From Echinarachnius parma (lineage: Eukaryota; Echinodermata; Echinoidea; Clypeasteroida; Echinarachniidae): a DNA stretch of 64,000 nt. The stretch covers positions 1 to 64,000 of the forward strand of contig JBAMJV010007513.1 of NCBI GenBank assembly GCA_037951105.1, read 5' to 3'. Below the pieces are notes generated by a model. The model was not told where the DNA came from. It was given only the letters and a program-made list of their open reading frames with translations, and did not search any database. Positions within the stretch are counted from its first letter, which is position 1. The number at the start of each line of letters is the position of its first letter. Below are positions 23,639 to 52,998 of this stretch, one piece after another. The position numbers and the translations under genes are program-made.

Positions 23639-23705
23639 ACGTAGCGTAGTGGTCACGCTGTGGACCTCCACGCTCGGTGTCTCGGGTTCGAATCCTCTCT
23701 TAGTC
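23639..23705 (+). other. tRNA-like sequence (SINE head or tRNA relict)
   Basis: GTAGCGTAGTGG resembles an A box and GGTTCGAATCC a B box, spaced as in a tRNA, but the acceptor arms do not pair convincingly. Confidence 0.4.
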
Positions 23706-26902: not shown

Positions 26903-29900
26903 ATGGACGCACTACTTGCTGAAATGAGGGCACAACAGCAGGTAAGAAATTGAGCACTCGTAAACAAACACATAAATCATGTACTACATGATTGCTACCA
27001 TTGCTTCCTGTATGAAAGGTACGCGAAGAGAGCAGTGGCGTAGCTAGGTTTTTTTCAGTGGGGTGCCCGAGCCGGGGGGGGGGGGGGTGATTTTCATGAG
27101 GGGGCACAGGCATCCTCCTCCTCCTGACAACCACAAACAAGATCCTTGCCCCTTTAGATACCCTAACACATACCTCATAAATAATCTTATTTGGCCAGAA
27201 AAGTAAATTTTGACAATGATCTTGCTCTAACCCAGCTAGCCACCTGACGTTGGGCCGATGTCGGAATTTGGTTGCCGGATGTCGGCATATCGCCGTTGGC
27301 TCGAGGTTAAAATGTCCGCCAGCCCAACATCGTCACGACGTCATTTTTGTGATATTGGCATAACGTCATTTTCCGACAATGGCCCAACATCATCTCATGA
27401 CATGATGTTGGGCCATTGTCGGAAAATGACCTTATGCCAATATATCACAAAAATGACGTCGTGACGATGTTGGGCTGGCGGACATTTTAACCTGCGAGCC
27501 AACGGCGATATGCCGACATCCGGCAACCAAATTCCGACATCGGCCCAACGTCAGGTGGCTAGCTGGGTAATATGCTTATATTTAAATGTTTTGGGGCAAA
27601 ATATGTTATCCTCTTTTTCCTGGAAGTGTGCACTTTTCATGTGGGCACCTGTGGGGCACAAAGCCCCCCCCCCCCCCCCCCCCCCCTGTAGCTACGCCAT
27701 GCATGTACGAGAGAGAAAGAGATGGGTAATGGTGTAGCGTCACTGTTGGATTAATTCACTTGTCTAGTACTATATGCATTTTGCAACATTTGACTTTTGA
27801 CTTTGCCCCATATTCGGGTGTCATGCACATTCCATGATTCCATAATGTTATGATTTATAGCAAATGTCATATCAAGGTAAAGGGGGGGGGGGAATACAAG
27901 CTGTCCAATGATACCAAATTCATGAACGATAATACCGTAATATAGGAGAGATATGAACTCTCAAACTTGAATTGCGGAACTTTTTGTGATATATGTGTAT
28001 TATAGAAAGGGGGAAGACAGAGTCAGAAGGGATGGATATAAGTGAATTAAACTAATATCATGATATACTCGAACAGTAAATACAAAATGTTCGGTTTTCA
28101 GCTGGATTATCACACATGACCGTACACATAAATTTAAATTTGCCTAGCTATAGTATATTTACTAGTTAATTCCGTAACATGATACCAAATTACGTTTGTT
28201 TTTAAAGGTAAACAAAAAAATGTTATTTGATATAGAAAAAGACCAATAATCACTAATTATTTACATAATTTTCTGACACTAACTTGTCATGCTTGTGGTC
28301 AGTGGCATACCCCGAGGGGGGGGGGGGGGGGGGGGGGGGTAAGGTTATCATGCCTGCATTGATAAACGACGGAAAACAATAAATACTGTACTACGTTGCA
28401 ACACCTATAACTTTGTTATTGGAAATGATGAATTAATAACACTTAACATTACGTAATACTGTGCTTACGACTAATTTTTACTGATAAATAGCGAGTTATA
28501 TGCATATGATGACAAATAGCTTCCTAAAATAGTACATCTTTTTCCATGCAGGCTAGAAATGATGAACCGCTTAGTGTCATCGAAGCCATGCTACAAATGT
28601 GCGATGAAAATGATAAGAAAAAGGAGCAATTTTTTGAGCTTGGAAAGCACCTTGGATTCGTCGATGAATACCTCGAGTTACAGAAGAAGAACTGCAAGAA
28701 TCCGGATGTTCTTATTGGAATGGATTACTTTAGAGCCACGCTGAGGATCCTGACCCGATGGAGGGTGTGTCAGAGAGGGAGAGATGCAGCAAGGTCTTTC
28801 CTCCGCAACATACTCTCTCAGATGGACCTGGCGGATGCTTGCCAGATTCTGGATGCAGGTAATGTATGTAGGAAGGTTTGTAGTGGGTTATGGTAAACTT
28901 GTTAAAGGTGCACCTGTTAAGTGTCTAACTCCACACAAATTAGTTTGAGCTTTCACATTTCTCTTCTACCGTGTTGTTTGGCTTAAGGTAAGAGAAGAAT
29001 AAAATACCGTAGGGTTACATTTTTTCAAATGCCTCTTTAGTATGACGATATCTATCATTTATAATCCTTCAGCTCAAGAGCGTTAATGAACGGTCATAAA
29101 CCTCATAAACGTCATACAATAATTCGTTGTAAAAGCTGACGCAAATTTTCTGTTTTTTGTTTACCCGGAAAGCAGTGTTGTCTTTCACACATCATTCGGA
29201 CATATCTTACAATGATTTTGGTATAGGATTGAAGTCTCAAATGTCATTTTTGGCAATATATGACACTTTACAGGTGCACCTTTAAGAGCCACATTATGGA
29301 ACCTGACACGATGGGACCCGATGAAGTGCGCCAGAGGCAACAAGACAATATGCAGCCAGTTTGTTTGGCACCATACTCTCTGGGATGAATTGACAAAGGC
29401 ATTTGAAACTGTCTGTATACAGTATAGCACTCATTATTAGTTCATTATGTTTATAAAACAATTACAACACTATCATCGTCAAGTGAGAATTCAGTACGAC
29501 TTCTTAGAAACTCGAGCCACATACAGACGTAGCGGAACCCGACCATATTCCGGAGTGGGTTTCAGGCAGAGAGAGGCAACTTTGGTGTATAAGATATTTC
29601 CTCAGCAACTTATACTCTCACATATAAATCTAACAAATGTTTGTCAAAGATCTGTCTGTATATAGAATACGTAGTTAGCTTAAATAGCAACTTATTACAT
29701 TGAATCTATTTTGCGATGGGAATTGTGAAGTCTTTTTCAGCCACGCGACAGAATCTGGCCTGATGAAGGGTGTGCCAGAAGCAAAGATATGAAGCAAGGC
29801 CTTTCCTCGGCAAAATACTCTCTCAGATAAATTAACAGATGCATTTGAATTATGACAGCAGTCGAAGGGACATTATTTAGTTCATAGAACAATAACAACA

Positions 29901-32900
29901 ACATTTGATATATGTAATGAAAACAACTACCTTAAGTCATTTAGAGAAACGCAAAGGAACCTGACCATCTGACGGGTGTCCGTGAGGCAAAAATGTCAAT
30001 GCTGCCATGATGACCAGTTCTTCGGCATATCTCTGAGATGTGGCTCTCGATCCTCTTATGATAATCGTCATGCTCGCAGTGGCAACATTTTTTCCTCGGC
30101 TTTAAATATTCAATAATAGTTTTACTTCTTTAGTAAATCTTATTAATGTAAACTATAAAGATCCAATATGAGTCAATTCTGAACTGATCATTAAATTATC
30201 GTCGCTTTTTCAGATGAGAGTCAGGATGGAGTCAAAACGGACATTCTTTTGGATGTCGAGATCGTCAAGCTGTCCTTGGCGATCACGGGGAAGAACGGCG
30301 ACTACTGGGTTATCGGCTCCACCCTGGGCATCGGTCTGGATGTGCTGGACAATATGCTGACCAAGTGTGGGGAGGATGGGGATGGGGCGGCCCTAGCAAC
30401 CAAAAAGATCCTGAGACAATGGCGAAACGGTACAGACAGAGGTGATGACGTCAGATGCGTACTATCAGAGATGTTGATTGATCGGGGATGGCTTGATGAC
30501 TGCACGTTTCTCGTTAAAGGTATGTTGTATGTGTTCGGGAACATCAGCTAAAACTAAAGAAGGGGCAAAACGGAATTGTTACGTCATTCGCAGTGAACCG
30601 CTTTAATATGTCAGTACAGTTAAACATGTCTTAGTGGCCACCTGGCTGAGGTCACATTTCTACAGTCTAAAATCATGCATGCTTTGCTGAATAAATCCGT
30701 AATTCATTACAGTGCTCGTTAGTGGCAAATGTGTTTTGTTTATCAATAATAAGATATTCATCATTTGATAACCCATTATGTGTTGGAAACATTTATTTAC
30801 TTAACTGTATAGAAATTAGTGGGGTAGCTAATTTGTGTGCCCCTCCCCCTTATCAGTCCGACCACGCTAAGCCACTGATTGGCATTCAGAGAAAAGGTGT
30901 TAATTGGCAGCAATATCTATATTTAAGGTGCCGATGGGGTGGGATGGACATCAACAAACAAACCAAGATGGCTGAAATGGGCAGACTCCGATGCCAGTGC
31001 CAAAGCCTTAACTGGAAGTAATCGGATAATCGTGACGTCACTTGGTGATATCGTACCGAAACTTCTGGTGGCGTTAACCCATCGTGTGCTGATGCGATTT
31101 GAGGAGAAACCAACGATCGTGGTTGTTGTCAATCAGGTAAAACGGATGATTCGTGACAATGACGTTTCATAGAATCGCTATGTAATAATGATAATAGGGG
31201 ATGATGAAAGCCTTTATTTTGTAATGGCTTGTCCGTGTAAATACCGCCTATATATAATGTTATATAAATATTATTGCAACGAAATAATCTTACTTTTAGA
31301 GAGACATCAATAACAAACGAGTTTACCTCGAGTTTTCGTTGGTAGCTGTTGTAATAAAACGAAGGTACATCGTAGCGATGATAAAAATGCCCTTTCTCTG
31401 CGTTATCGTTTGTTTACATGCCGGATTTACTTTCTTGCAAGGAAGAATATCATTCATGTACAATGGTCCTTGTATAAATCTGACATTTTCATTCTGAAAA
31501 CCATACACCAATATTCAAGGTATGTCGTGCCGAGGTGTATGAACGAGCTCTGAAAGAGCGCTTTGACCGAATTGGGTGCCTCACTGGGAAGCAGATGCCT
31601 AGAGACCCCGGTTCGACATCGATGACCATGGAGAAAGGGCTTCCCTTCGATGTCATCGTGCGACGCAACGACGTGCTCGTGGTGTCTGCCCAGATATTCG
31701 TGGCTGCTCTCCGCAAGGAACAGGTGTCTACGGAAGACATCGACGTCATCATCTTCGACGAGTGTCACGTGGCAAAGGTTGGAATTTTAATTCATCCATG
31801 CTATAGTTCTGATTCAAATCCTTCGATTACAGTAACGTTTTTTTCCTTGTTCCTTCATTTTACATTATTAATGTTATTGTGGATCTATTTGTTTATTTTA
31901 TTTAAATAATTTAGATTATATAAAGTATATTCATCCATTTCTGATTTCACTTGATCAACAATATTGTTTCTTCATTTGTATTTGACTTGGTTACCTTATT
32001 TATGATAATAAGTAAACAATTATTTTGTTTAGACATGTATGTAATGATTTGCTTATTCATGTATCTACCTTTTCTGACTTGACTCAATTTACGATGAAAA
32101 CGTATTGATTTAGATTTTGTGAATGGATGGGTGTGATAAATCTATACAGCCATCGGCGTATAACATACATGTTCATGTTACCATTTCATAAGGTGTATCC
32201 ATTTGCTCCTATTTAAAAGACGTTATGTTAGATCATACAACAACGTATGCGGATTCGAGTCAACAGGCTAATTCAATATAATTCATTATGTTATTAATTG
32301 TTTTACCATTATTAAACCCACAGAAAGGAAGCGCATACATTGACATCATGGACCAGATCCGAGAGACTGAGACAAACACAATTCAGGTGTAGTTTTAATT
32401 TTGCCTTTCCAAATAATGCATTTAGACAGACTGGCAAATAATTTAAGAAATCTAGTAAGTTTGAAATGAACAGCATTTGTTTCTTTCTTTGGATTTCGCG
32501 TGTTGAGAGAGATTCAAAAATCCGTACAAGACCTATTTTCTGATGGCTATATCTATTCCAACTTTCAAGTGGATCATGCTAAGAATGTGTGTCGATTATA
32601 TGTAAAGCGATCTACCACTTACATATAACCCATTACGCCCATGATAAGGAATAATTTAAAACTTATCCATGCGATCATTTTTGATAATAACATTTTATAA
32701 TTACATTATACTGAGTTTTGCCCGCCATAAAATGTGTCTGTTTTGTACAGTAATCGATTTTACTTTTAAGTCTGTCTATTTATTTGTATTCATATTACTA
32801 TTATTCATTTGTATTATAATCATTATGATTATTATCATAATTGAACATTATCGTTTTTGATATGGCAAACAGATTATTGGTCTAACCACGCTCGCAGGAC

Positions 32901-33168
32901 TCGACAATTTGGTGGGCAAAAAAGCCACCAAAAACCAAGCGACCCGGTGTGTGATTAATATGTGTGCCAATCTCCGTGCGGTCCGCCTGGTCATTCACAA
33001 GACGGATGAACAAAATCAGAGCACACAGACTTCTGTTCCTCAAAAAAAAGGTAACAAGATTTTTTCCGGTGATTTTGTTTGCTTTTGTCAAATTTACGAT
33101 CGAAATATGCAATAAGAAGAAGTAGTAGTAGAAGTAGTAGTAGTAGTAGACGTAGAAGTCGTAGCAAC

Positions 33169-33208
<40 letters not shown>

Positions 33209-34802
33209 ATAGTAGTAGTAGCAGTCTCCATGTACTAGTTATTATGGTAATATAAGTAGTAGTCATAGTTGTAATAGTAGTAGTATCGTTACTTTATAAT
33301 CTATATGCAATGAAACAATTCATATTTTAAAACTTTAAATAGAAGAAAAAGCAACGACGCCAGAGGATAGTTCCAAAGAAGCCGACGCTGAGCTCGGTAA
33401 TCAGTCGGAGAAGCCAGACTCGATGATCAAGGGAATCGTGCAAGAAGTCAGCGGCCTCTCCGTCAAAGAAATGAAACTCATGGTAAGTTTATACAAATTG
33501 ATGCAATGTTTCATTTGAATAAATATAAAATTTCAAGATGTATTCTTGCCTTAATGACTGTAAAAAATTTGAGACAATTTGAGGAAGCCTACAAACCCTC
33601 AATATGGCACTTACTGCCAGAACCTGAGAAATACAATGTATACTGTGTATATAGTGCATATTGTCAGAATTCGTTCTTAGCAAGAAGTCATCCATAATAT
33701 TTTCATTCTGAACATGATTTCTATGGCAAACCCTTGGCTGCATGGCGAACTCTCGGCAGCTTGATGAATTTTATATAAATACACAGTCACGCTCTGTAAA
33801 ATTTCCCAAATTAATGTAAATCAAGTGCTCGGAATTTTCTGGGTTGCCGAATTCAGGCATAATGCTATAATATCAACTGCTTCACTTACATGCTTGTATT
33901 GGTATTTTACTGATGTTGATGCTGTTGTTACTGTTGTTGTAATGCTTTTTTATGAAACACCAACACAGATGAAACTTCACGATGTGGTGAACATAATTGC
34001 CCCTACAATCGGTAAACCCCAAGACTTCCGGGATAACCGATTCCACTGCCGACATTCACAGTGCGATGCGCTCGTCTGCCGATCAGCCGACATCCGAATC
34101 GTTCCCGGTGGTCACCACGTGGTCGTCGATCACGACATCCTGACGAAGATTGACATCAAATCTTCCGACGTTGCGGAAGAAAAGAAGGCGGGCAAGCGAT
34201 GGGGGTCCATAGAGCACACGGGACACGATGTCTGCTGTAAGGTCTGCGGCACCAAATGGGGAAGCGTCCTCGGATGCCGCAGTGGAGCAGCAGGGGCAGG
34301 GTCAAGTGAAGTGGCAGCCATGATAATGACAAAAGTAAAGGCAGCTAGAGCAAGGGCAGAGACAGGCGGAACAGGGGCAGAGGCAGCCAAGGCAGAGGCT
34401 GACACAGCCTGTGTAGGGACAGGGATAGTGACAAGAGCAGGGGCTGCTAGAGCAAGGGCGGAGGCTACTAGGTCAGGGAATGACACAGCTAGTCAAGGGG
34501 CAGGCGCAACTGGGCCAGGGGCAGAGGCAGCTAGTCAAGGGACAGGAATAGTGACAAGGGCAGGGGCTGCTGGAGCAAAAGTAGAGGCAGTCAAGCCAGG
34601 GGTAGATGCAGCTCGACCAGGACCAGGCGCAGTTAGGGCAGTGACAGGGGCGCTACTAGCCATCTCGCCAAAGAACCTGCGCATGAAGAATGAGACAACA
34701 ACGCCCAAAACCGTCACCAAGTGGCGTGATCTGCCCTTTACCTTCGCGGAGGCGGCGACATCAGAAGCGGCGTTCAGATGGGAACAAGTCAAATTACCGT
34801 AG
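26903..34802 (+). CDS. Gene B: RLR-derived protein, two Death domains, P-loop-less Hel1 remnant, split C-terminal domain
   Basis: Nine coding exons: 26903-26941, 28552-28858, 30214-30519, 30928-31136, 31520-31777, 32324-32386, 32873-33050, 33343-33482, 33969-34802; 777 residues if all are joined. Phases agree and no stop interrupts. Domain order: short leader MDALLAEMRAQQQ, Death 1, Death 2, a Hel1-like segment that keeps IIFDECHVAK but lacks Walker A and has GLTTLAG for motif III, a 60-residue linker, and a RIG-I-type C-terminal domain interrupted by an Ala/Gly-rich insert. Hel2i and Hel2 are absent. Acceptors of exons 4 and 5 end in AAG and look weak; C has CAG in both places. Start chosen as the first ATG downstream of the promoter, in frame with a good GTAAG donor. 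Gene C is a paralogue with the same exon order and phases. Confidence 0.85.
27033..27700. mobile_element. Poly-G/C element carrying a nested palindromic MITE in gene B intron 1
   Basis: Outer ends GCAGTGGCGTAGCTAG and GTAGCTACGCCATGC. Nested at 27230-27568 is a nearly perfect inverted repeat, arms about 165 bases, with termini ACCCAGCTAGCCACCTGACG and its complement, containing GGCCCAACATCATC at the centre. Confidence 0.8.
28552..28858 (+). other. Gene B Death domain 1 (exon 2)
   Basis: A 307-base exon, phase 0 in and phase 1 out. Shows FFELGKHLGFVDEYLEL, a LTRWR segment and AARSFLRNILSQMDLADAC, typical of a six-helix Death fold. Closely paralogous to exon 2 of genes C and D; partial decayed copies follow in the intron. 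Confidence 0.8.
28904..29285. mobile_element. MITE with GTTAAAGGTGCACCTG termini in gene B intron 2
   Basis: Left GTTAAAGGTGCACCTGTTAAG and right CTTTACAGGTGCACCTTTAA minus terminal bases form inverted ends. The matching copy in gene D (60695-61088) is at the equivalent place, so insertion predates that duplication. Confidence 0.7.
29285..30060 (+). pseudogene. Array of four decayed Death-exon copies in gene B intron 2
   Basis: Segments at about 29285-29410, 29514-29645, 29738-29850 and 29942-30060 each echo the second half of exon 2: an AACCTGACCCGATGG-like start, a GTGTGTCAGAGAGG-like middle, a TTTCCTCxGCAA segment and a CTCTCAGAT segment. All carry stops or frameshifts. The same array occurs in gene D intron 2. 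Confidence 0.7.
30214..30519 (+). other. Gene B Death domain 2 (exon 3)
   Basis: A 306-base phase-1/phase-1 exon with YWVIGSTLGIGLDVLDNML, ILRQWRNG and a GDDVRCVLSEMLIDRGW segment. It is a compact one-exon version of the Death domain that gene A splits over exons 1 and 2. Confidence 0.85.
30928..33050 (+). other. Gene B Hel1 remnant without Walker A (exons 4-7)
   Basis: Exon 4 (30928-31136) ends in TIVVVVNQ like gene A exon 6 but has RIIVTSLGDIVPKLLV where A has [16 protein letters not shown]; no P-loop and no Q motif. Exon 5 (31520-31777) keeps IIFDECHVAK. Exon 6 (32324-32386) encodes 21 residues beginning KGSAYIDIMDQI. Exon 7 (32873-33050) has IIGLTTLAGLDNL where A has [12 protein letters not shown]. 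Confidence 0.85.
33116..33230. repeat. (TAG)n microsatellite in gene B intron 7
   Basis: AGTAGTAGTAG-type triplets; gene C has a longer tract in the same intron (about 50220-50400). Confidence 0.9.
33969..34802 (+). other. Gene B C-terminal regulatory domain with Ala/Gly-rich insert
   Basis: The exon encodes [24 protein letters not shown] and CCKVCGTKWGSVLGC, then an Ala/Gly/Thr/Arg-rich insert (about 34281-34650), then LLAISPKNLRMKN and TKWRDLPFTF. Without the insert it aligns directly with gene A. The first zinc half-site is CX4C rather than the CX2C of A and C, from a 6-base insertion. Confidence 0.85.
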
Positions 34803-36960
34803 CTCTTTAAATGGGCTATTTGAAGCGAGTGGCGTAACTGGAGTTTTAGAGGAAGGGGTTTCTCGATCACCGTTAATATGACAATATGAGCTAGGGATCT
34901 CAGAAATGCATATCATGTCAGTAGCGTAGCTAGTCTGGGCTTACTTTTTAGGGGCAGGAGGCATGTCATTTATTAGGGGATACACTATCAATATTTTTGT
35001 TTGTTTATATATGTTTCCAATTGTACTTGAAGTTGATAGTATGATAGTCATTACTACGCAGTATTTAATGCTGAACATGTTTCTCTTTTATTTCAATTTC
35101 CTACAGCGCATAGAGACATAGGCCTATGTGATATGCGCGTTATAAATACATTAGTATTAGTATTATTATTTGTATTCCTATATATGGTCTGTATATACAA
35201 AAAAGAGTATATTAAATTTTGGGCATAAGCTGCACACATATGATTAAACGCCACTTCTAGATTGGGTGGCTACTTGGCCACATCTAGTCACGTGAAGTGT
35301 AACAACATGATTTTTCTTAATCAAAGATATTTGAAAATCATTATAGCTATAATAGCAAGATTGTAATTGTTTCATACATTGTTTAACTTGATTCGAATGC
35401 TGTATAACTAAGATAATCTTTAAAAGTGAAATTACCTCAAATGGTCTCATCTAGATGCTGAACATGCGTCGATGGTTATTACCACATAACTTGAACTATA
35501 GAACTGCCGAACTAATAATGATCTCGTTATCAATTATGTCCAAAATGAAAGTGGATAAATTGATACAATATAAATATAATGTTGTTCTGTAACTAGCTAT
35601 GTTTGATGTTTCTTTCGATGGTTATAAGAGATACTCTGTTGCATGAAAAACATGCCGAGTTGTAAATATCGACGGTAGTATTATGATGTAAACAAATTAT
35701 CATCATTTCAAAACCATGTGACTGTAAATTAGTTAGTTATTCAAAATATTTTGATATAATTAAGTTAAGTTTAGAGGAGACTTTATATGACCTGAATATG
35801 ACATACTTTTCTAGATAACTGTTACAACTGAAATGATTATGATAACCATCTAGTATCACGTTTATATAGAAAATATCGTAAAGTGTATCAGTATAACTGG
35901 CAACCTTTTCTTTTGTTTGTAATTAAAATGGATGTTACCTGCATATATTGTTTTATAACACATGATAGTTTAGATAGATTATAACATACATTGGTGTATT
36001 GTTTGTTATTCAAATGTATTGAATTGTTGTATTTAGCGTAGTGTAATAAGATAGCTATTTACAAATGAAACTGTACACAAAATAGTTTATATAAGAACTG
36101 TTGTATACTATAATCTGTATTATTGTCTTGCTTGTAAATACATGTACGTATATTTAAACAAGAAAACCCTTTCAAATCTGTCAAACCATGTATAGCTGAT
36201 TGCTGATCAAAATAATGGTATACTTTGTTTTTATTTAGTAAGGGTGTGTAAGTATAATTTATTTAGATAGTTGAAAACATTGATTTAATAATGAGTTTCA
36301 GTTTGGTGAAATATTTTGATGGGCAACAGCTATAGATGTTAAGGAGCAGATATATGTTTCAAACTCGACTACTATTTCCCATTCTAGTGTCCGTGCATTT
36401 GGGAACCTCCTTCAGCGTTTGTTTGAGGTAGTTTTTTTTACAAGAACGTTATTTTATTTTAAGAAACAAGCGTTTCAGTATATTGATAAATTCCACATAT
36501 TGTTTTGTTTGACTGTCTTCTCAATAACTTTCTTCAATGATCCCGGTTTTCGTGTGTTCAATTTTACATCAAAATATCATTCGTCGGTTGTTGAATAATC
36601 TTTTGAACTATGAAAATAAAAGAAATGCATCGTTACGTAATAAGACAATAAGTACAACATTTTGTTTCTTTGTTTGTTAAATAGCCTTTTCGACCAGTAC
36701 AGCAAGCATGTCACTGTATTCATAAAGACATCCAACATTGACATCCAACAACCACACCTGCGATATCACATCTTCTTCGTCAATCACTTCAAGCGTATAG
36801 TTTTAAAAATTGTAGAATGTGTAGCTGAGAGCTGTTCCCACGAACGTTATTATTAATTTGTCTGATAATTCAGATGACCAATATCAATATGTGATAGCGA
36901 TACAATATTATATACGACCTGATATATCGTATCACCATCACATATTGCTGGTCGTCTTTT
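34803..36960 (+). other. Gene B 3' flank / probable 3' UTR, AT-rich
   Basis: No gene recognised. Sequence around 35280-35490, 36158-36215 and 36661-36740 is shared with the gene C 3' flank (54112-54330, 57312-57355 and 57793-57870), marking the extent of the duplicated block. Confidence 0.55.
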
Positions 36961-39700: not shown

Positions 39701-39719
39701 TTATTTTGCTTATCCATCA

Positions 39720-40013: not shown

Positions 40014-43000
40014 ATGGACGAAATAATTGACGAAATCGAAATGGACGCACTATTACTGCAGGTAAGAAATCCTCTGGTTATTGTTTCATAAATAATAATA
40101 ATAATATAATATTCTCGATATATAGCGCCTAATATGATTGCTAATAATCTCTACAATTATATTATTACCCCTCGGTCATCGGATGTATACTGCAATCAAT
40201 CCAGCACACAGGTGCACGTTTCCCACTCCCTACATGGAGAGCATTCCAGCCAGGCAACCTTGTAGGTGTATGACATGTTTTTGGGGCAACATAATTATGC
40301 TGTCCATTTTTTCCACGAAGTTTGAATTTTTCGTGGAGGCACCTGTGGGGCACAGAGCCCCACCCCCTCCCATCCCGCTTAGCAACGCCCCTGGACGAGA
40401 CGGATATAGAGGAGTAATGGTGTAACACCACTGTCTTATCAATTTGGTGGAAATACACTATACGTATGTCTTTAAAAAACTACCGTTGAGTATTGGTATT
40501 TTCCGAATTTCTCCCCCGATATTAATTGTAAGGGATTCGGTTTTTGTCGAGCCCATCGTAGGTGGAGGGAGACTTATGCCCGGGGCAGACAGAGCCAACT
40601 CGACCCGATCCGACTGGTTTCAGCCTGATTAACTCAGTATGCGCTGCCTCAGGACTCTGGTTTCGCCAGTCAAGAGCCATTTGAAGGTCATTCGAGGCCG
40701 ATTCAACATATTATTGGATCGGCTCCGACTGAGCGAAACTGACTCTAGCCTGACTGAAAACCAGTCGGATTGGGTCGAGTCGACTCTGTCTGCGCCGGGC
40801 ATAAGGGATCCAAATTGCGTCCGTCCGTCTTTCCGTCCGTCCGTCTGTCCGTCCGTCCGTGACGATTACAAAAATGTGAATAACTTTCCAACCCTGCATC
40901 CGTTTGTAACCAAATTTGATTGGTAGATGCCCTACATTGGCCTTCATGATATTATTGGGTCAAAGGTCACATAAATAGGTCAAAGGTCAAATGGGGTCAA
41001 ATGTGAAGTTTTACCTGTAAGAGTCTATTAGGGTTGGTAACTTTCCAACCCTGCATGTGTTTGTAACCAAACTTGATTGGTTGGTGCCCTATATTTTGGC
41101 CTCCATGATGTCATGGGGTCAAAGGTCACGTAAGTAGGTCAAAGGTCAAATGAGGCCAAATGTGAAGTTTTACCTGTAAGAGTCTATTAGGGTTGATAAC
41201 TTTCCTACCCTGCATTTGTTTGTAACCAAACTTGATTGGTAGATGCCCTACATTGGCCTCCATGATATTCTGGGGTCAAAGGTCACATAAGGAGTTCAAA
41301 GGTCAAATGGGGTCAAATGTGAAGTTTTACCTGTAAGAGTCTATTAGGGTTGATAACTTTCCAACCCTGCATGTGTTTGTAACCAAACTTGATTGGTTGG
41401 TGCCCTATATCTTGGCCTCCATGATATCCTGGGGTCAAAGGTCACGTAAGTAGGTCAAAGGTCAAATGAGGCCAAATGTGAAGTTTTACCTGCAAGAGTC
41501 TATTAGGGTTGATAACTTTCCAACCCTGCATTTGTTGTAACCAAACTTGATTGGTAGATGCCCTACGTACATTGGCCTCCATGATATTCTGGGGTCAAAC
41601 GTCACATAAGAAGGTCAAAGGTCAATTGAGGTCAAATGTGATATTTTACCTGCAAGAGTCTATGAGGGTTAATAACTTTCCAACCCTTCATCTGTTTGTA
41701 ACTAAACTTGATTGGTAGGTGCCCTATATTAGCCTCCATGATATTCTTGGGTCAAAGGTCAAATGAGGTCCAATGTTGTATGAATGCGCGTAAGTGAGCG
41801 AGACACTCTACGGCTATCGCCTTGTTTTAATTCCATTCGAAAGTTCATTGAATAAAACATGTAAAATAATAATCATTCGCATTCAAATGCTCTCATTGTT
41901 GTAAAATTTGATTTGAAAATAGTTTATTAATAAGATTCTCCGCCAGGGGACATTTAGATTTTTTAGAAAGAAAAAAATAATACTTATAGACTACTTTGAA
42001 AAAAATCTAAATAGGTTTTTTAAAAAGTTGTTGAGAGATATCTCTATTGAATCATTATTTTAAAAAAACATCAAATGCACAATTTTGTATGAAAATGGCT
42101 AAAACCAATGATTTTTTTAGAAAGCACCCTCTTGAGTTGTAACGGCTCTTTTTAAATTATAACAGGGGTTTTACTTAGTCGTTTGTAATTATGTATACTT
42201 TTCGAGCATGGTAGAGTTATAACTATTATAGTTTTTACTGTAATGGTGCAGGTTTTGGTTACTAAAGTTAAGTTTGACTAATACTCAACTATCCCTTTAA
42301 TTTAAAGGACTTGCCATTATGTTTGTTGTTGTTTTGTAATCATCGTGAGGATGCCTCCATCCCTGCGCTAGCCTACAAATGTATTTGGATTAAAGTCATT
42401 ACAAATAAAGAATATAGTACATACTAACTCAAACGATTTTAGCCACTAATATCAATGTTCGCAAATATCTCTATACAGGTTTATTTGTTTATTCTAGTTA
42501 TGTATCTACTTAATTATGTATTTATGCATGTATTTATTTTGTTAATTGTTTAAATAAAATCTTGAACACTATGTCATTTTCTTTGTTTTGACGCGCAATG
42601 TAAATACGAGTCGAGAGTATTATGTTCATAATTTAATGACGGCGGGATTGACGGGAAATGATTATGTCCACACAGGTAATATGCGGCATGCAAAACATGC
42701 CAAACATGGCATACAAGCCAGACAAGCCAGAAGAAAGTAAGCTATTACGGGTGTACGACCAGCTGAGAAATGGGATGAACGCCGACAAGATAAAACAAGT
42801 GTACTTTGAGATGGGGAAGCGCCTCGGATTTGACTCTAAATACCTGAAACTGCAGATGAAGGATTGTAAAGAGGATTTCCTAAGAGCTTCACTGCGGAAC
42901 CTGACCCGATGGAGGGCATGCCAAGATCAAAGCCAGAGAGGTGCAGCAAGGGCGTTTCTCAGCGACATTCTCTCTCAGGTGGATCTGGCAAGTGCCTATC

Positions 43001-46000
43001 AAATTCCGGATGCAGGTAATGTCCGTAGTATAGCAGTGGTAGTATACATACATGCGTAAATATACATTCCACTGCGGATATGCCCATTTGGTGTGTATGT
43101 CCCCGGTTTGATGGAACGCACACGGGATGATATGCCCCATTGCCCAGTACACAAACACACACTCTAACTCACAAACGTATACACGAATTGGTAGTATACA
43201 TACATGCCTTAGTGTTACGTCAAAAAATAATATGACGACTTCTATACTATTACTAATGATAATAATGATGATCATGATAATAACAAAATAATAACAAAAA
43301 TAATCAGCCAATAACGATCATATGCACCAGCATTGTATCTATTTAAGACGGCACGTGATTGCCCGCTTATTTATATCTAAGAGCGCATAAGTAAATTGTT
43401 GTTTTTATTTTCAACATTTTAAATGCACGCTCACACTAACACACACACACGCACGCACACACACACACGCACGCACGGACACACACACCGCAAGCACACA
43501 CTCACACACGCGCGCACACACACATACACGCACACATGTACACACTATTTATGATAATAAAGAAAATGTATAACAACTTGTTTTTTATTCATAATTACGA
43601 AAGAGTATTTAATTGTGCAAGCTCAAGTTTTAGAATGGTTACAATTAAACACTTTATAATGATGATCAATACGAAATAAATTATTTACCAATTCATCGAT
43701 TAACTATTTGGTCAGATGAGAGTCAGGAAAGAGACCAAACGGATATCCTTACTGATGTCGTGATCGTCAATATATCCTTGGCGACCACGGGAAATATGGG
43801 CGCCTACTGGGTTATCGGCTCCACCCTGGGCATCGGTCTTGATGTGCTAGACAATATGCTGACCAAGTGTGGGGAGAAAGGGAATACGGCATCCATAGCA
43901 ACTGAAAAGATCCTGAGACTATGGCGAAGCAGCTCAAAGAGAGGTGATGACGTCAGATGCGTTCTGGTAGAGATGTTGATTGATCGGGGGCTGTTTGATG
44001 ACTGCTCGTTTCTTGTCAAAGGTGTGTTTTTTGTTCGGGTATATCAGCTTAGATATAAACAAAACGTAGGAATGTTCGCTTACTGTTTCTGAAAATTAGT
44101 ATGCATGATTCCGACCACGTTATGAAACGTCATCTGAGCGCTTCTGATCACGCACTACCAATGAAACCGCTGTTGTTGAATTTGCTGTCAGTGGTTACGT
44201 AAACTGCTTTTGTTTGAGCCAATCGCATGATGTTTCATGTGGTACCGTTTGAAAACTTGGCGGCCTCCAGTGTTCCAAAAATAGATGAGAGCCTAGTGGT
44301 TTAGAAAACATTGATTATTTCCATTGTTAGTGATACCCAAAAGGAAATATACGACCAGAAATGAAGGGAATTATGCAATCAGTAACAATAGGCAAAAACA
44401 CCAGTGCTTAACACCCTCTTCAAAAAGGGGGCAAAGGGGAGTTAGGTAATTAAACGTGCTCCAATCTAGTAAATAAGAAGGACATAAAAGAAGAAAAAGT
44501 AAGGTATTCTTCTACCTGTTCCAGGTTATTCGTTAAGTCATTGATTACATTTTCTCTAAAGTCATTAATGCTTTGCTGATTAAATCTAGGAATAGTGGTG
44601 ATGTCTTTTAAACTACATTAGTGCTTGTTATAGTGGCAGACTTTGTAATGGTGTTCACACGGGCGTAGCGAGTTACGTAATACCTATTCAACTGGGGGGG
44701 ATGTAATCCGATGAATGAATAGCTCATCCCCCCCACTTGAATGGGTATCAATGTCATGTCTACGCCCGTGGGTATTCATAATATATTAACTGATTACATG
44801 TAGGAATCCGTAGAACCGTTCATACACTTATGAGATCAGTGGCGTAGCTACGGGGGCAACTTGTGTGCCCCCACTCAGCACGACCACGCTTAGCTTAGCC
44901 ACTGATGGGCATTTATATATATGTATATTTTCAGGAACCGATTGGGAGTTATTCCAATCGGAAAAAACACCGAATCTGCTGAGATTGGCGGTCTCCGATA
45001 TCAGTGCTGATGCCCTATCCGATGGAAGTAATCGGATAATCGTGACGCCACTCGGTGATATGGACTCAAAACTTCTGGTGTCGTTAATTCTTCGTGTGCA
45101 GATGCGATTTTATGAGAAACCAGCGATCGTGGTTGTTGTCAATCAGGTAAAACGGATGATACGTCAAATTGTTATTTTATAGAATCACTGTGTAGTCATG
45201 ATTACAGGCGTAGACTGGGATGATGATAGCCTTTCTTTTGCATTAGCTTGTACATGTGAACACCGTATATAGTGTTATATAGATTCTATCATAACGAAAT
45301 AACCTTACTTTAAGATATACATTTAGATATGAAGAGCTTTCTTCCAAAAGGCGCTATATCCACTTTTTCAACTTTCGAAGTAAACAGGTTTCTTTGCCAA
45401 ACTTTGTACTATGGGAATATGAAAATTGAACTTTCTATATGTTGAATTTGAGTGAGTAATCTGTAGCTTATAAATGTAGATATATCGTTAACTCAATTTA
45501 TATGGAAAGTGGATTTAGACCCCGTTTACAGTGTAGGGCCGGGCCGAGCCGCGGCTCGGCCCTGCCTAAATTGCGGTACTCGCCCCCCCCCCCCCTCCCC
45601 CCCCCCCCCCAATTTTGTGCGTTTACAGTGAAAAAAAAGGCCGGGCCGAGCCGCGGCTCGGCCCGGCCTTTTTTTCACTGTAAACGGGGTCTTAGCTCCT
45701 TTTGGAACTGAGCTCTTCATATAAACTTTTAGAATCTATTATTAAAACGGAGTTGTATTAATTTATTTTGTATTTATTGTTTATTTGCGGAAATGAATTT
45801 CTTTCAAGGAGGATTATAATTCACTTACAATGGGTTTTGTTTATCTGACATTTTTAATCCTGAAAACCGTTCCCCAAATAATCCAGGTATGTCATGCTGA
45901 GGCGTACAGAAAGGCGTTGAAAAAGCGCTTTGAGTATGTTGGATACATCACTGGGAGCCAGAGGCCTAAAGACCACGGCCCAACATCAAAGCTTCCCTTC

Positions 46001-49000
46001 AATATCATCATGGTAGTCAACGACGTGCTCGTGGTGACTGCCCAGATATTCGTGGCTGCTCTCCGCAATAAAGAGGTGTCTACGGAAGACATCGACGTCA
46101 TCATCTTTGACGAGTGTCACGAGGCTAAGGTTGGAATTCATGGAGTGATTGAACACACCTATTTCTGTATTAATTGACTCTTTAAATTATTCATACGTAG
46201 TTTACCTAGTTTATTCATTGTATGTTATTGGAGGTGTATCGTGTAATTTTGTGTATCTTTTGATGTAATGATACGGTTATTTATACAGTACTGTATATTC
46301 ATCTATTCATGATTTGGATTACTTGTTAGTTCCCCTTTTTGTTGTTTTTTACCTCTGCATTTGTTACTTTATTTGTCCATTTAATGATTAACTCATTAAT
46401 GTATTTACAGTATCTTTTTTTACAGATAAATTCATTTATTTAGTTATTCATTCATTTATCATATAAATGATTTGGTTATTTATTTATTTATCTATTTATG
46501 AATTTATGATTTTAAAATGTCTTTAAATACGTGTAAATGGATCGTCGGCGTACCTAGGCGGGGGGGGGGGATTAACCCCCCACCCCTTTTTCAAAATTGA
46601 AGTGGTCTCGAGGTCACTTTTTAGCGGTCTCGACCATCATAACAATGGTCTTGGCCCCCAAAACCAAGTGGTCTCGGTCTCGGCCTCGAATTTGTTTGAC
46701 CCCCCTCGAACAAATTTTGACGGACCTCCCCCGCGAAACATTTTGACGGACAACCCCCCCCCCCCCCTTCTCCCCTTGGACAACTCCTGGGTACACCAGT
46801 GAAATGGATGGTTATAAAAATTCTACAGTAATCTGCATATGCATGTATTGGTGTGAACATTTGAAATGGTTTATCAAATTGCTCCTATTTTAATTAATGT
46901 TCTCTTTGATAAAAACAACGTAGGTGTATTTTGAGTCAACAAACTCATGTATATTGTTGTTAGAAATCATTGAATAGTTGTATTATTTTCAAACCAACAG
47001 AAAGGAAATGCTTATGTTGACATCATGGACAAGGTCCGAGGGACTAGGACAAAATTCATACAGGTGGAGTATTAATGTTGCCTTTCAGAATAAAAATAGA
47101 TTCAGACAAGAAATGTTCATTTCATAAAAATAATGAGCTTGAAATGTGCAGCAACCATTTGTTGTTCATTGTTGTTTTTTCCGTGTTCAGAACGGTTCAA
47201 AAACCCTTATGATACTTCTTTTTTCTGATGGCCATATCTTTTCCGACTATGATCAAGCGGATATCTTTTAATGTGTGCCGATTAATCCTAGAGCAATATG
47301 CCACACATGACCTATTATAATGTATGAGATATTATCCATATTATCATATTTCAAATTTACATTTTTGAATTCCATATACTATATCCTGCCTGCCATCCGA
47401 TATCGATTAAAGTGGCCCCGACATGAAATGGCGCAAAACGTTTGACTGACTTTTGTAACTGTTAACGGTAAATCCAAACATGAGAACAGTTTGTCTTTGT
47501 CACCTTTGGGAACGCCCCCTCCCCCCGAAAAAAAAACAACAACAACAAACAAACAAACAAACAAAAACAAAAACAAAAACAGGAAAAACAGAATTGAATA
47601 TAAAACATGTTATTATTATGATTGTGATTAGTTTAGTACACACTAAGAAAAAATGGGTCAATCTTACACCTATATAGGTGCAAACCGTTGCCACACTGGG
47701 GGCTCCTATATAAGTGCAAAAGTTCACCTTTTGGTAAAGGTTCAGATTTAATCCTTCACCGTTTGCACCTTGAGGGTGCAATATTGTATATTTAGGAAAA
47801 GGTGCAGAGTTGCACCTAAAAAAAAAGATACGTGTAAGTGTAAACTTAAGTGTAAGTGTAAGTGTAAATATAAGTTAAAGGTGCACAGTTGCACCAGTGT
47901 GGTGCAACATTGCACCTTTGAGTTAAGTGTAAAGATGCACCAAAAATGGTTAAAAGTTGAACACCCCTTTCCTGCGAGTGCATGTGTGTATAGTCCTATT
48001 CTCGTAGTCCTAATAACCTATGATATAACCTATGATATAACCTATACGTACTTTGCCCTAAGCCTATACCTATCATTCCTAACCATCGGTCCTTGTTCAC
48101 GTTTAGCTTATAAGCAGGTTACAACACGATGTATGTTTTATAGTGGTTAGTAATTAAACACAGACGTTAAAACAGTATCGCCTTAATTCATTACCCCCAA
48201 AATGGTTCACAAGAGTCCACTGATAATTAATTGTTACTAAATTAAATTACAAATGCATTCTGATAATTATTTCACAAAATAACGAGATTATGAAGAGATT
48301 AAATGTTCGTTTTGCAAAAGCACAAACTAGCACATGAATATTCATGAACCTGTTACAAATTACTGCAAATCGTGCGGTTTTATTTGTATTCAATGTCAAC
48401 AACAAACGAATACGCTGTTTTGACCTGGAGTCATACTATTGATATAAATGCGATTCAATACGTATACTAGTCGTACACAAATCAGCTGTTGCTGTGTCGG
48501 AAAAACCTGAAAAGCTTTTAAAATTGCCATGAGCAACCATTGTTGATAGGCTACGCATAAACTGGTCTTTAGATCATCGAATTAATGATGTCGCATTATG
48601 TTATTATTACTCCGGTTATAATGTATACTCTGCATCATCTGCACCTTCCGATTAATGTATTTCTTTGTGTGAATAACGTGCGATATCTTGGCAAAACAAA
48701 TTACCAATCAGAGGGGCTGTAACGAAACTATTTTTAAATTATAAATATTCTCATAATACTTTATTTCCTTCATGCATAATAAGCTATCATTTTACAAAAG
48801 AATCATAGAGTAGTGATGGATATTAAACATTTTGCATTAAAACACTAAATGCATATTTTGTCTCTCTGTGAGTTAACTATTTCTCTCGGACCTTGTAATT
48901 GGCTGACTGCCTTGCCGTGGCCGTAGTTGTCATTTATTTTCAGACCAATTTCAATAATTTCAAAAAGACAGTTGACACATGTTCATTATAAAACCATAAA

Positions 49001-50286
49001 CTTATACACTCATTATGGTGCACAATACTTTTGATGTTGGCATAGAGTTTATCATGGTATATATCTCAGAAACCACGTGTGCAGTAGGACCGTTGTATAG
49101 GAACAAGACCAAGAATAGTGGGTCTTTGTAGCAAAAAATCACCTAAATAGGTGCACAAAATGGTGCAATGTTACTCCTTTACCAAGTCTGCACCTTTCGC
49201 CGTTACTTTGCACCTTGTTTGATTCTCGCTTGGTAGCTTATGAAACAAATGACCAATCAAAGGGGCTTTAGTGAATCTACGTGTGAAGAAGAACTATTTT
49301 CATATTACGTTACTGCCAATTTCTCTGTTTTTCAAATCCCTGCATGCATGATGAGCTATTATTTCACGCAAGAACCAATAGAGCAGTGATGTAAATCAAC
49401 AATTTTGCATTTAAACACAAAATACATGTGTTTTCTCTCCGTGAGTGAATTGTTTCTCTCGGACCCTGTAATTGGTTGATAGCCTTGCTGTGGCCGTAGT
49501 TGTCATTAATATGATTGTACAGACCCATCTAATTCTTTTCAAGATTATATTAAAATAAAATTGGCACATATTCATTCAAAACCATAAGGGTATACATTCA
49601 TAATAGTGCGTGATGATATATTTGATGATTGACATAGAGTGTACGAATCTTATATTAACAGAGGAGTACATAAAACCATGCATGCAGTAGGACCATGGTT
49701 TAGGAACAAGACTAAGAAAGGTGCGACTTTGCCCCTTAGCAAAATGCACCCTAAAAGGTGCATAAAATGGTGCAACTTTAATCCTATGCCGAGTCTGCAC
49801 CTTTTTTCGTTACTTTGCACCATTTATCAACCATTTTTTCTTAGTGTGTAGTAGTAAAAGTACTATTATTAGTTTCGTTATTGTTATAATAATTAGTGTT
49901 ATTTGTATTATCATTATCATTCTCATTATTATTTTTTTATTGTCATTGTTATTATTATTATTAAATGAAGTAGTAGATTATTATTATTATCATAATTATC
50001 ATCATTTTCGTATCATTATTAGTTAGTATAATTATTACTTTCGCAAACAGATTCTTGGTCTGACCACGTTCGCAGGACTCGACAACATGATGGGCAGAAA
50101 AGCCACCAAAAACCAAGCGACCCGATGTGTGATTAATATGTTTGCCAATCTCCGTGCGGTCCACCTGGTCGTACGCAAGTCATGGGAAACGAATAAACAA
50201 AATCAGGGTATGATCAGTAGAAGTATTCAAGTAGTAGTAGTAGTAGTAATAGTAGTAGTAATAGTAGTTAGTAGTAGTAGTAGTAC

Positions 50287-50345
<59 letters not shown>

Positions 50346-50352
50346 GTAGTAT

Positions 50353-50396
<44 letters not shown>

Positions 50397-52998
50397 TAGT
50401 AGTAGTGGAAGAAGAAGAAGTATTAAATGTAGTAGTCGTACGTGGTAGTAGTATTACAAGTAGTAGTCTTTAAAGTAGCAGTATTAGTGTTTGTTAACTA
50501 TCGGACATCGTCTGCTAATGACGTCACAGTATTTCAGCTGGTTTCGGCGGGACTTTTGATGCCATAATGGGCTTACGAATTACCACTATTTCATTGATGA
50601 TAACTCCTTAATAACAATGTTTTGAAACATTTACTTGTAATATTCGTGTTATGGATTATGTATGAAATATGGAAATATGAGCTGAATCTGAATTAAAAAT
50701 CAATAAAATTATACTTTAATAAGACAAATTGTTTTTTGTAATTTCATGTTGATAGGAGCAAGTGCAGCAAAGGCGGCTCAACCCGATAGTCAGCCGCAGA
50801 AGCCAAATCCCATGATCCAGGAAATCTTGCAAGAAGTCAGCGGGCTCTCCGTCAAAGAAATGAAACTCATGGTAATGGTATGGAAGTAGCTACATGGGCG
50901 TAGGGGCACATTTTTTTCCAGGCAGTCTGAGGTCTTCTGCCTAAACAATTATCCTCGCCTATTTCATGCCTGAAATCATACGTCTTTTTAATGGTTTTGT
51001 CCAAAAAGGTAACTATTTTTGCACGAATATAAAACGTTTTTTCCAGAAAATGACGTAAAATTAGTCTGCCCGAATATGGCATTATTTTACCCCTAATGTG
51101 ACATGGATTTGCCCGAATAAGAAATTGTTTTGCCGGATTATGACATGTTTTCTCCCGAATATGGCAAGGCTTGCCCCGAATTTGATCTGATTTCTGCCAT
51201 GAGCTGCTTTTTGCAAGTCAGATGCGCATCGGGGAAATCAAATTAAATGATTTAAGGGTATTTTGTTATATATTGATGAAAGGAATAACATAGGTGGTTA
51301 ATTTTAGGCTTAGTAGGACATGACTTTGTTGTCAGAATTCGTTCTAAGCCTGAAATCAACCACCTAATTATTCCTTTCAGTTTCAGCGATAACACAATAT
51401 ATGTGGCCAATCTTTTGAATAATTGAAGACACCTGGCAGCGATTAATTTCACGTCGATATAATATCACTCTCTATATATTATCTAGTCGTCTCTTAAGAT
51501 GTATGCTTCTTTTTTTTAAACACTAACACAGACGAAACTTCAGGATGTGGTGAACATTGCCCCTACCATCGGTAAATCCCAAGACTCCTTGGAGAACCGA
51601 TTCCATTGCCGACAGTGTGATGCACTCGTCTGCCGATCATCCGACATCCGAATCGTTCCCGGTGGTCACCACGTGGTGGTCGATCATGACATCCTAACCA
51701 AGATTGACGTCAGACCTTCCGACGTCGCGAAAGACAAGAAGGCGGGCAAGCGATGGGGGTCCATAGAGCACACGGGACATGATGTCTGCTGTAAGGTATG
51801 CGGAACTAAATGGGGAAGCGTCCTCGGGTGCCGCAGCCGCAGTGGAGAAGCAGGAGCAGGGACAAGTGAAGTGGCAGCCATGATCATGACAAAAGTAGAG
51901 GAAGCTAGGGCAAGGGCAGCTAGGGCAGGAACTGGGGCAGATAACCCAAAGAAAGATAGGCCAGGGGTAGAGGCAACTAGGTCAGGGAATGGCGCAGCTA
52001 GTCAAGACACAGGGATAGTGGCAAAGGACGGGGCAACCAGGCCAGGCGCAAAGTCAGCTGGTGATGGGGCTGGAATAGTAACAGGGGCAGGGGCAGGGGC
52101 CGATAACCCAGGGAAAGACAGGCCAGGGGCAGAGGCAACTAGGTCAGGGAATGGCGCGCCCATTGAAGGCACAGGGGGAGTGGAAAAGGACGGGGCAACC
52201 ACGTCAGGGGCAGAGTCAGCTGGTGATAGGGCAGGAATCGTAACAGGGGCGGGGGCAGAGGCAGATAACCCAGGAAAAGACAGGCCAGGGGCAGAGGCAA
52301 CTAGGTCAGGGAATGGCGCACCCATTGAAGGCACAGGGGGAGTGGAAAAGGACGGGGCAACCACGTCAGGGGCAGAGTCAGCTGGTGATAGGGCAGGAAT
52401 CGTAACAGGGGCGGGGGCAGAGGCAGATAACCCAGGAAAAGATAGGCCAGGGGCAGAGGCAACTAGACCAGGGAATGGCGCACCCAGTGAAGGCACTGGG
52501 ATAGTTGCAAAGGAGGGGGAAACCAGGCCAGGCGAAGATTTAGCTGGTGATGGGGCAGGAGTAGTGGCAGGGGCAGGGGCAGCTAGGGCAAGGGTAGAGG
52601 CAGGTAAGCCGGAGGAAAACGCAGATAGGTCAGGAGAATCTAGTCCGGGGGCAGGCGTAACTAGGCCAAGGACAGTTAGGCCAAAAACAGGCGCAAGTAA
52701 GCCAGGGCCTGACGCAGCTAATACAGGGACAGGAATAGTGGCCCAAACATCGACAACTGGGACAGGAGCTGACTCAGCTAGACCAGGCGCAAAGGCAGCT
52801 AGTGCATATAATATAAAGGCATCTAGGACAGGAGCAGGCGCTGTTAGGGCAGGGACAGAAGCGCTAATTGCCATCTCGCCAAGGAACCTGCGCATGAAGA
52901 ATGAGGCAAACACGCCCAAATCCTTCACCAAGTGGCGTGATCTTCCCTTCACCTTCGCGGTGGCGACAACATCAAAAGCGGCGTTCAGAGTGGAGTAA
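40014..52998 (+). CDS. Gene C: RLR-derived protein, two Death domains, P-loop-less Hel1 remnant, C-terminal domain with a large repeat insert
   Basis: Nine coding exons: 40014-40061, 42676-43015, 43716-44021, 44935-45146, 45887-46129, 47001-47063, 50051-50207, 50756-50871, 51532-52998; 983 residues if all are joined, with consistent phases and no stop. Order as in gene B: leader MDEIIDEIEMDALLLQ, Death 1, Death 2, Hel1 remnant with [10 protein letters not shown] but RIIVTPLGDMDSKLLV in the Walker A position, motif III replaced by GLTTFAG, linker, C-terminal domain. Hel2i and Hel2 are absent. The last exon is much longer than in gene B because of an Ala/Gly-rich insert with four 54-residue repeats. 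The gene spans 13 kb because its introns took in transposons, including a 2.2 kb TA-flanked element. Splice acceptors are CAG or TAG throughout. Confidence 0.85.
40573..40805. mobile_element. Palindromic MITE, TGCCCGGCGCAGAC termini (copy 2)
   Basis: Same family as 22865-23092, opposite orientation, inserted in gene C intron 1. A CCGTCCGT microsatellite follows at about 40818-40860. Confidence 0.75.
40880..41780. repeat. Six-copy satellite-like tandem repeat, about 158 bp unit
   Basis: CTTTCCAACCCTGCAT recurs at about 40883, 41041, 41200, 41357, 41517 and 41677. Each unit also holds GGGGTCAAAGGTCA and GAGTCTATTAGGGTT. It lies within gene C intron 1. Confidence 0.9.
41935..42304. mobile_element. 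MITE of the AAAGGGGTAGTACAG family (partial, inverted)
   Basis: Ends CTCAACTATCCCTTTAA; the left terminus is not clear. Shares the AAAGCACCCTCTTG and TTCGAGCATGGTAGAGTTAT segments with 56170-56642. Confidence 0.55.
42676..43015 (+). other. Gene C Death domain 1 (exon 2)
   Basis: Longer at the 5' side than in B and D, beginning VICGMQNMPNMAYK. The core reads YFEMGKRLGFDSKYLKL, a LTRWR segment and a ARAFLSDILSQVDLASAY segment. Less similar to exon 2 of B and D than those are to each other. Confidence 0.8.
43440..43545. repeat. (AC)n/(CG)-interrupted microsatellite
   Basis: ACACAC tracts with GCACGC interruptions in gene C intron 2. Confidence 0.85.
43716..44021 (+). other. Gene C Death domain 2 (exon 3)
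   Basis: Same length and phases as gene B exon 3. Contains YWVIGSTLGIGLDVLDNML, KILRLWRSS and a GDDVRCVLVEMLIDRGLFDD segment. Confidence 0.85.
44656..44772. mobile_element. Small foldback with CACGGGCGTAG ends
   Basis: CACACGGGCGTAG at the left and CTACGCCCGTGGG at the right, with ATTCAAGTGGGGGG-type arms. In gene C intron 3. Confidence 0.65.
45518..45691. mobile_element. Hairpin MITE, GACCCCGTTTACAGTG termini
   Basis: Inverted ends GACCCCGTTTACAGTG and CACTGTAAACGGGGTC; internal GGCCGAGCCGCGGCTCGGCC palindrome occurs twice around a poly-C tract. It sits inside an outer inverted pair (about 45330 and 45722). Confidence 0.75.
47639..49848. mobile_element. 2.2 kb TA-flanked non-autonomous DNA transposon in gene C intron 6
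   Basis: Termini CACACTAAGAAAAAATGG and CCATTTTTTCTTAGTGTG are inverted and flanked by TA on both sides (47637-47638, 49849-49850), as expected for a Tc1/mariner-type TA target duplication. The interior contains GGTGCAA/TTGCACC blocks near both ends and a roughly 350-bp internal duplication (about 48680-49020 and 49230-49570). No transposase frame. Confidence 0.75.
50220..50400. repeat. (TAG)n microsatellite in gene C intron 7
   Basis: Long AGT/TAG triplet tract with few interruptions; the polyserine frame is an artefact. Same intron as the gene B tract. Confidence 0.95.
51532..52998 (+). other. Gene C C-terminal regulatory domain split by a 340-residue insert
   Basis: Zinc-site halves HCRQCDALVC and CCKVCGTKWGSVLGC, with [12 protein letters not shown] between them, are followed by the insert (about 51841-52860) and then by LIAISPRNLRMKN and TKWRDLPFTF. 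The insert is Ala, Gly, Thr, Arg and Asp rich, with motifs such as GIVTGAGAG, GKDRPGAEATRSGNGA and GATTSGAESAGD. The flanking domain halves align with gene A without gaps, so the insert lies in one loop. Confidence 0.88.
51941..52588 (+). repeat. Coding minisatellite, four 162-bp units
   Basis: ATAACCCA-type unit starts occur at 51941, 52103, 52265 and 52427, exactly 162 bases (54 codons) apart. Units 2 and 3 are nearly identical; units 1 and 4 are more diverged. The spacing keeps the frame. Confidence 0.9.

Follow-up and report, generated by a model that had tools for sequence, protein, structure and literature searches.

The window, 64,000 nucleotides of DNA from Echinarachnius parma, contains on its minus strand a RIG-I-like (RLR) gene bearing a helicase motor, gene A, and on its plus strand the RLR paralogues B and C together with the N-terminal exons of a third, D. 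Genes B and C and the part that they share with A were reconstructed from the raw sequence, one exon at a time. The features are given below by window coordinates; DD1 and DD2 are the exons of the two N-terminal domains, CTD is the RIG-I C-terminal domain, and genes of the type of B and C are called half-helicases.

1896..1958, plus strand: E, a lone short exon of half-helicase type upstream of A, probably a relict
8279..8833, minus strand: A CTD exon, without insert
9328..14518, minus strand: A block with the Hel2i and Hel2 exons (motifs IV, V and part of VI; Pfam RIG-I_C and Helicase_C)
16646..16839, minus strand: A Walker exon, APTGSGKT, with VVNQ end (motor comparator)
26903..26941, plus strand: B exon 1, MDALLAEMRAQQQ, phase 0 end (ATG...CAG/GTAAG); 95% counterpart at C6232:64417-64460
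28552..28858, plus strand: B exon DD1, death-like N-terminal domain 1 (the death assignment is weak), AG/GT borders, phases 0-1
30214..30519, plus strand: B exon DD2, putative death-like N-terminal domain 2, phases 1-1, 73% identical in C and 93% in D
30928..31136, plus strand: B Walker exon, IIVTSLGDIVPKLLVA in the place of the P-loop; same place and phases as in A (start 1, end 0), VVNQ end
31520..31777, plus strand: B motif Ib/II exon (SAQ, DECH)
32324..32386, plus strand: B short exon, motif II to motif III
32873..33050, plus strand: B motif III exon (TTL), phase 1 end
33051..33342, plus strand: B intron of 292 bp, TTG-rich, where A has 5,191 bp with the Hel2i and Hel2 exons
33343..33482, plus strand: B linker ("pincer") exon, phase 1 start; it follows Hel2 in A
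33969..34802, plus strand: B CTD exon, RIG-I_C-RD (Pfam E 4.8e-14) with a 127-residue Gly/Ala-rich insert, stop at 34802
40041..40061, plus strand: C exon 1, MDALLLQ, phase 0 end (CAG/GTAAG), ATGGACGCACTA in common with B exon 1
42676..43015, plus strand: C exon DD1
43716..44021, plus strand: C exon DD2
44935..45146, plus strand: C Walker exon, IIVTPLGDMDSKLLVS; place, phases and VVNQ end as in A
45887..46129, plus strand: C motif Ib/II exon (TAQ, DECH)
47001..47063, plus strand: C short exon, motif II to motif III
50051..50207, plus strand: C motif III exon (TTF)
50756..50871, plus strand: C linker exon
51532..52998, plus strand: C CTD exon with a 346-residue insert, stop at 52998 (Pfam E 7.2e-13, query cut before the insert)
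60346..60640, plus strand: D exon DD1 (third half-helicase)
62027..62332, plus strand: D exon DD2

B and C are each built of two N-terminal domains, then a degenerate Hel1, then a RIG-I C-terminal domain. The exon phases are the same in A, B and C: 1-0 for the Walker exon, 0-0 for the motif II exon, 0-0 for the short exon, 0-1 for the motif III exon, 1-0 for the linker exon and 0-stop for the CTD exon, with AG and GT at the borders. Each of the two genes has eight homologous exons free of stops, which with the short exon 1 make up the nine open exons that an earlier, sequence-only reading of this DNA had claimed. Its further claim that Walker A has been replaced was confirmed by the exon comparison: when the exons were matched by place, phases and the VVNQ end, the APTGSGKT of A was found to correspond to VTSLGDIVPK in B and VTPLGDMDSK in C. 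DECH closes the motif II exon in both genes and TAS of motif III has become TTL in B and TTF in C, again as that reading had it. Both LRDYQ and APTGSGKT were read in A, neither in B or C. The Q motif and P-loop of B and C are gone and motif III is altered; what the two genes retain are the N-terminal domains, motif Ib/II and the zinc-type CTD.

A cryptic exon with GxGKT, named beforehand as the finding that would overturn this picture, was sought by regular expression in six frames, and none was found on the plus strand in B or C. The pattern G.GK[ST] gave no plus-strand match in 26,900-35,000 or 42,600-53,000 in this search of genomic frames, in which a motif interrupted by an intron would be missed. 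A looser pattern gave one plus-strand match in C, APTIGKS at 51559, which is one residue short and falls not in Hel1 but in the first part of the CTD exon; B, D and two copies on another contig (B' and F, see below) read GKP at this position. The plus-strand G.GK[ST] at 39764 was rejected as a hidden P-loop, as it is located between the genes and has no helicase context.

The motif III and linker exons of A are separated by 5,191 bp containing five Hel2i/Hel2 exons, in which what we take to be motif IV (ILFTQT), motif V and the start of motif VI (QTRG) are readable; the corresponding gap in C is 548 bp. When these five exons were used as tblastn queries at loose settings, only chance matches were obtained in B or C (lowest off-target E 0.17), and there was no counterpart at E 0.05 in the loci of D, B', F and a further copy, G. 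A hidden Hel2 in B or C was rejected on the combined result of tblastn and Pfam scans of the whole stretch (C to 52,400), both of which returned chance matches only. Since Hel2i and Hel2 are missing, B and C are half-helicases; the sequence-only description of a helicase domain minus its P-loop was correct for the P-loop, but what is left is really half a helicase. The motif III exon ends in phase 1, the phase in which the linker exon begins, so that the loss leaves the frame intact. With Hel2 gone, ATPase activity and translocation would not be expected even given a P-loop, and the anatomy of B and C leads us to expect that their ATPase is absent. The non-ATPase character proposed earlier is supported by the lack of an ATP site and by the open frames, and a non-ATPase role is probable, since the genes have no ATP site and are kept open.

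A search of B against human RIG-I with phmmer gave a whole-sequence E of 4e-13, the Hel1 stretch (query 228-475) alone giving 4.9e-10 and a second stretch, on the CTD, being only weak. The Pfam DEAD profile fails on B with a score of 15.9 against a cut-off of 26, and ResIII passes with 24.6 against 22.5. The matches of PF11648 to B and C cover the profile to approximately position 70-74 of 117, that is, up to a point before the insert. LGP2 was among the best PDB matches of the CTD of A (E 6.5e-6). The 3' end of the CTD exon of A is duplicated in short tandem at 8134-8459, and a degenerate second copy of the Hel2 motif IV exon lies behind the real one at 10724-10833; such a copy is also present in three other A-type genes compared (C6232, and C8767 twice).

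The CTD insert is Gly/Ala-rich and consists partly of repeats. It occurs in all six half-helicase copies detected in the genome, with a different length in each (127-346 residues); the CTDs of four motor copies and of five other RLRs, aligned with them, lack it. That each of these six lengths preserves an open frame speaks for the insert being coding and against an intron. Within the CTD of C there is a coding minisatellite with a 162-bp unit (52082-52501), and G has a different unit of the VGADTADT type. An insert that is open in every copy and missing from the other RLRs aligned would suit a structural or condensate-forming RNA binder, a non-immune scaffold unrelated to antiviral signalling. 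The tandem array adjoins motor RLRs, however, and DD2 is similar to its counterpart in A (tblastn E 1e-4), and we consider such a function very unlikely.

The genome of the same animal (1.2 Gb, 14,790 contigs) was searched for further copies, and all counts are lower bounds. PF11648 gave at least 19 matches. Half-helicases number at least six on three contigs: B, C and D on that of the window (C7502), where D extends past the window end to 70440; B' and F on C6232; and G on C13327. A seventh half-helicase Walker match, D' at C6232:124420, belongs to a contig that ends just before the site. The Walker exons of the six fully read copies all lack GxGK[ST] and share the replacement IIV[TA][SP]LGD..[PS]K, whereas GxGKT is intact in 10 of 10 other RLR Walker exons read, from at least 28 Walker-type matches of which 18 were unread. 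Motif III is TT[LF] in the five readable half-helicase exons and TAS in none, DECH is present in five of the six copies (F has DACH), and the four zinc-type cysteines of the CTD are kept in all six, with CX4C for CX2C as the first pair in B and B'. The identity of the Walker exon to that of B is 59-100% among half-helicases, compared with 28% outside the group. Inner supports in the CTD tree are weak and the tree alone leaves a half-helicase clade unproven; the grouping is based instead on the shared losses and the Walker exon identity.

Four of the copies (B, C, D and B') are complete, with AG/GT borders and no stops in 8 of 8 exons. The fifth, F, is probably complete: it is open throughout, and the borders of its DD1 (CCACAG/CAA, GCAG/GTAATG), Walker (AAG/AT) and short exon (CAG/GTGAAG) were read by eye. 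The sixth, G, is without recognisable motif III and linker exon and looks damaged. The region 42-73 kb of C6232 is collinear with 6-36 kb of C7502, mostly at 94-98% with some blocks at 87-92%, which makes B' probably the other-haplotype version of B.

Several further observations were made on the arrangement of the copies. B' and the cut D' flank F in the way that B and D flank C. In Hel1, F is nearer to B (Ka 0.14, against 0.26 to C), but over the whole CTD exon it is nearer to C (78% against 66%, tblastn), and between B and B' the Ks is 0.018 in Hel1 but 0.159 in the CTD; on the sequences compared, the pattern among B, B', C and F looks as if pieces had been exchanged between copies. Near-identical inverted copies lie at 26009-26337, upstream of B exon 1, and at 63716-64000, in the intron of D between DD2 and Walker exon. 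A relict DD1-like piece with stops is found between DD1 and DD2 at 29734-29832 in B and 61539-61658 in D, and also in B'. The lone exon E looks damaged and is probably a relict: tblastn over the preceding 1.9 kb gave no motif II exon, and between E and A it gave no plus-strand motif III exon. E is followed at 2188-4018 by a reverse-transcriptase-like reading frame which, by its appearance, we take to be a non-LTR element. A lone exon similar to E was found at C8767:15742 (minus strand). G is followed by two tandem CTD exons, C13327:21170-22525 and 23177-24575, which are 95% identical in DNA, and there is a further partial one at 20098-20514.

The dN/dS ratio of B and C over Hel1 was 0.86 (0.56-1.26) or, by a second computation, 0.90 (0.59-1.37), not different from 1, and was highest in the Walker exon (1.24). 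For the half-helicase set, pairs with fewer than 15 codons were skipped and DD1 was left out, and G contributes no motif III or linker exon. The Hel1 ratios in this set were 0.49-1.60 in 14 of 15 pairs, the remaining pair, B-B', giving a value of 0.10 that rests on four changes. In five of the 15 pairs, four of them with G, the upper bound was below 1, indicating that Hel1 is not a wholly free spacer. The CTD core gave 0.24-0.43 in every one of the 15 pairs, with an upper bootstrap bound below 1 in all but one (B'-C, 1.02). It is thus the RNA-binding end, and not Hel1, that is under the strongest constraint. The four motor paralogues gave 0.25-0.44 for Hel1 in six of six pairs and 0.46-1.35, with wide bounds, for the CTD; as these CTD ratios rest on 12-23 changes, the swap in constraint is firm for Hel1 only. 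The constraint on Hel1 has weakened along with the loss of the motor, while that on the RNA-binding end has not.

Hel1 ratios near or above 1, as found for B-C, B-D and B-F, would also be produced by a non-functional duplicate lineage that has been caught before stops build up, and the missing motif III and linker exons of G, the DACH of F and relicts such as E fit such a decay. The sequence-only reading had named a ratio near 1 combined with stops in other individuals as evidence against a conserved role; the ratio is indeed near 1 for B-C Hel1, but stops are absent in both B and B'. The CTD ratios, the intact frames and splice sites of B, C, D and B', and the age of the lineage, which is taken to be old because the synonymous distance to A is near or at saturation, all oppose decay. 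A neutral simulation, started from the open sequence of B as a rough proxy for the ancestor, gave P 0.004 for a Hel1 free of stops in both lineages. The introns of B and C differ by 22% and contain many indels: 32 in 1034 bp when the TTG repeat (33051-33342), the CTD insert (34290-34660) and 29600-29900 are excluded, and 76 in 1336 without exclusion. Approximately 19 frame-breaking indels would be expected in a neutral B-C Hel1, but the exon lengths differ by whole codons only. The differences are 15 in the motif II exon, where the proteins align with one 5-residue gap, and 21 in the motif III exon; the blastn gaps, counted without regard to direction, are 1, 1, 2 and 13 in the former and 2, 3, 6 and 9 in the latter. 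Decay of the family is quite unlikely in our estimation.

The DD2 domain gave no Pfam match in any of the six members, and a DD2 profile gave only chance matches against the PDB. The best Pfam Death matches were weak, with E 0.021 for DD1 of G and 0.1 for A, and on this evidence DD1 and DD2 are perhaps of the death fold. DD2 is 72-100% identical to that of B in the five other copies; DD1 shows little conservation from B to C (Ks 1.98, Ka 0.32).

The conservation of DD2 and the constraint on the CTD would both be expected of a direct receptor, in which the loss of Hel2i, the part to which CARD2 is held in RIG-I, and of ATP gating leaves the N-terminal domains always exposed and the CTD gathers molecules on RNA, so that they signal without proofreading. 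The interface of CARD2 with Hel2i is described as the RNA-selection gate of RIG-I (PMC4737149), and free 2CARD is reported to signal strongly (PMC4733034), both of which accord with this reading. Constitutive signalling would however be costly, DD1 is poorly conserved, and the RIG-I mutant K270I is reported not to signal, its authors concluding that SF2 and RD can recognise immunostimulatory RNA with no requirement for ATP binding (PMC4733034). According to the same source RNA recognition in RIG-I uses SF2 as well as RD, and since most of SF2 is missing from B and C the parallel with K270I is weakened. A direct receptor is a rather unlikely reading. It is unlikely that the family constitutes a separate, ATP-free animal RNA sensor, whose CTD would bind RNA ends and couple death-fold partners directly, without a proofreading motor, and whose hypervariable repeat, located within the RNA-binding domain, would set clustering; in such a sensor the replaced P-loop (LGD..xK in the six copies) would have acquired a new binding role.

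The reading that we prefer, with a probability of about 0.5, is that B and C are members of a multiplied family of RIG-I-like proteins that have lost the motor and most likely regulate the motor RLRs by competing for RNA ends or by serving as decoy or scaffold. The protein would use its CTD to bind RNA, with no gating by ATP, no proofreading and no translocation; its N-terminal domains would interact with the partners of the N-terminal domains of gene A, and the Hel1 remnant would act as a fast-changing spacer. The conclusion drawn from K270I, and the LGP2 findings on CTD binding and catalytically inactive protein cited below, serve as precedents. The regulator or decoy ranks before the direct receptor, followed by decay and the non-immune scaffold; regulator, decoy and direct receptor cannot be told apart by sequence.

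Comparison with known systems gave several partial parallels. Utp25 is likewise a helicase-like protein, termed a pseudohelicase (PMC9539457), but belongs to another family and to ribosome assembly. Lophotrochozoan RLRs with death, DED, IG or SAM N-termini resemble the present family in their tandem expansion and in including death-domain RLRs, although the variety described there is at the N-terminus (PMC8998645). That survey, of 227 RLRs from 58 species, required a DEAD/DEAH domain and RD, and its abstract, Results 2.1-2.6, Methods 4.2 and legends describe no half-helicase (PMC8998645). Screens of this kind may miss such genes, as the DEAD score of B falls below the cut-off. In an older survey, some sea urchin RIG-I-like models are short, with lengths of 209 to 480 residues (PMC2686710), and none of the literature matches listed concerned a motor-less multi-copy RLR.

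LGP2 (DHX58) is similar in being a proposed regulator, partly without catalysis (PMC3914343), and it is matched by the CTD of A. The human LGP2 CTD alone is reported to bind dsRNA and catalytically inactive LGP2 still to inhibit RIG-I, but K30A mice suggest that the LGP2 ATPase is needed (PMC3914343). LGP2 has a complete helicase and no N-terminal signalling domains, the reverse of B and C. The nearest published parallel found, a truncated RLR with an intact one alongside it, is DRH-2 of Caenorhabditis elegans, which was suggested to be a negative regulator of RNAi (PMC2629121); its role is disputed, as later work reported no antiviral role (PMC3793227). DRH-2 is a single recent copy that lost its domains by frameshift, whereas the family of B and C has six copies, mostly open, with an old shared loss.

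RIG-I and MDA5 have the same order of paired N-terminal domains, Hel1 and RIG-I C-terminal domain as B and C. Unlike them, B and C are without P-loop, Q motif, Hel2i and Hel2, motif III is altered, the CTD carries a long insert, and the N-terminal domains are perhaps death-like rather than CARD. In RIG-I, the binding and hydrolysis of ATP are thought to help tell viral from self RNA, and a natural, old and multiplying RLR lineage that has no motor offers a way to test how much the RNA-binding and signalling ends can achieve by themselves.
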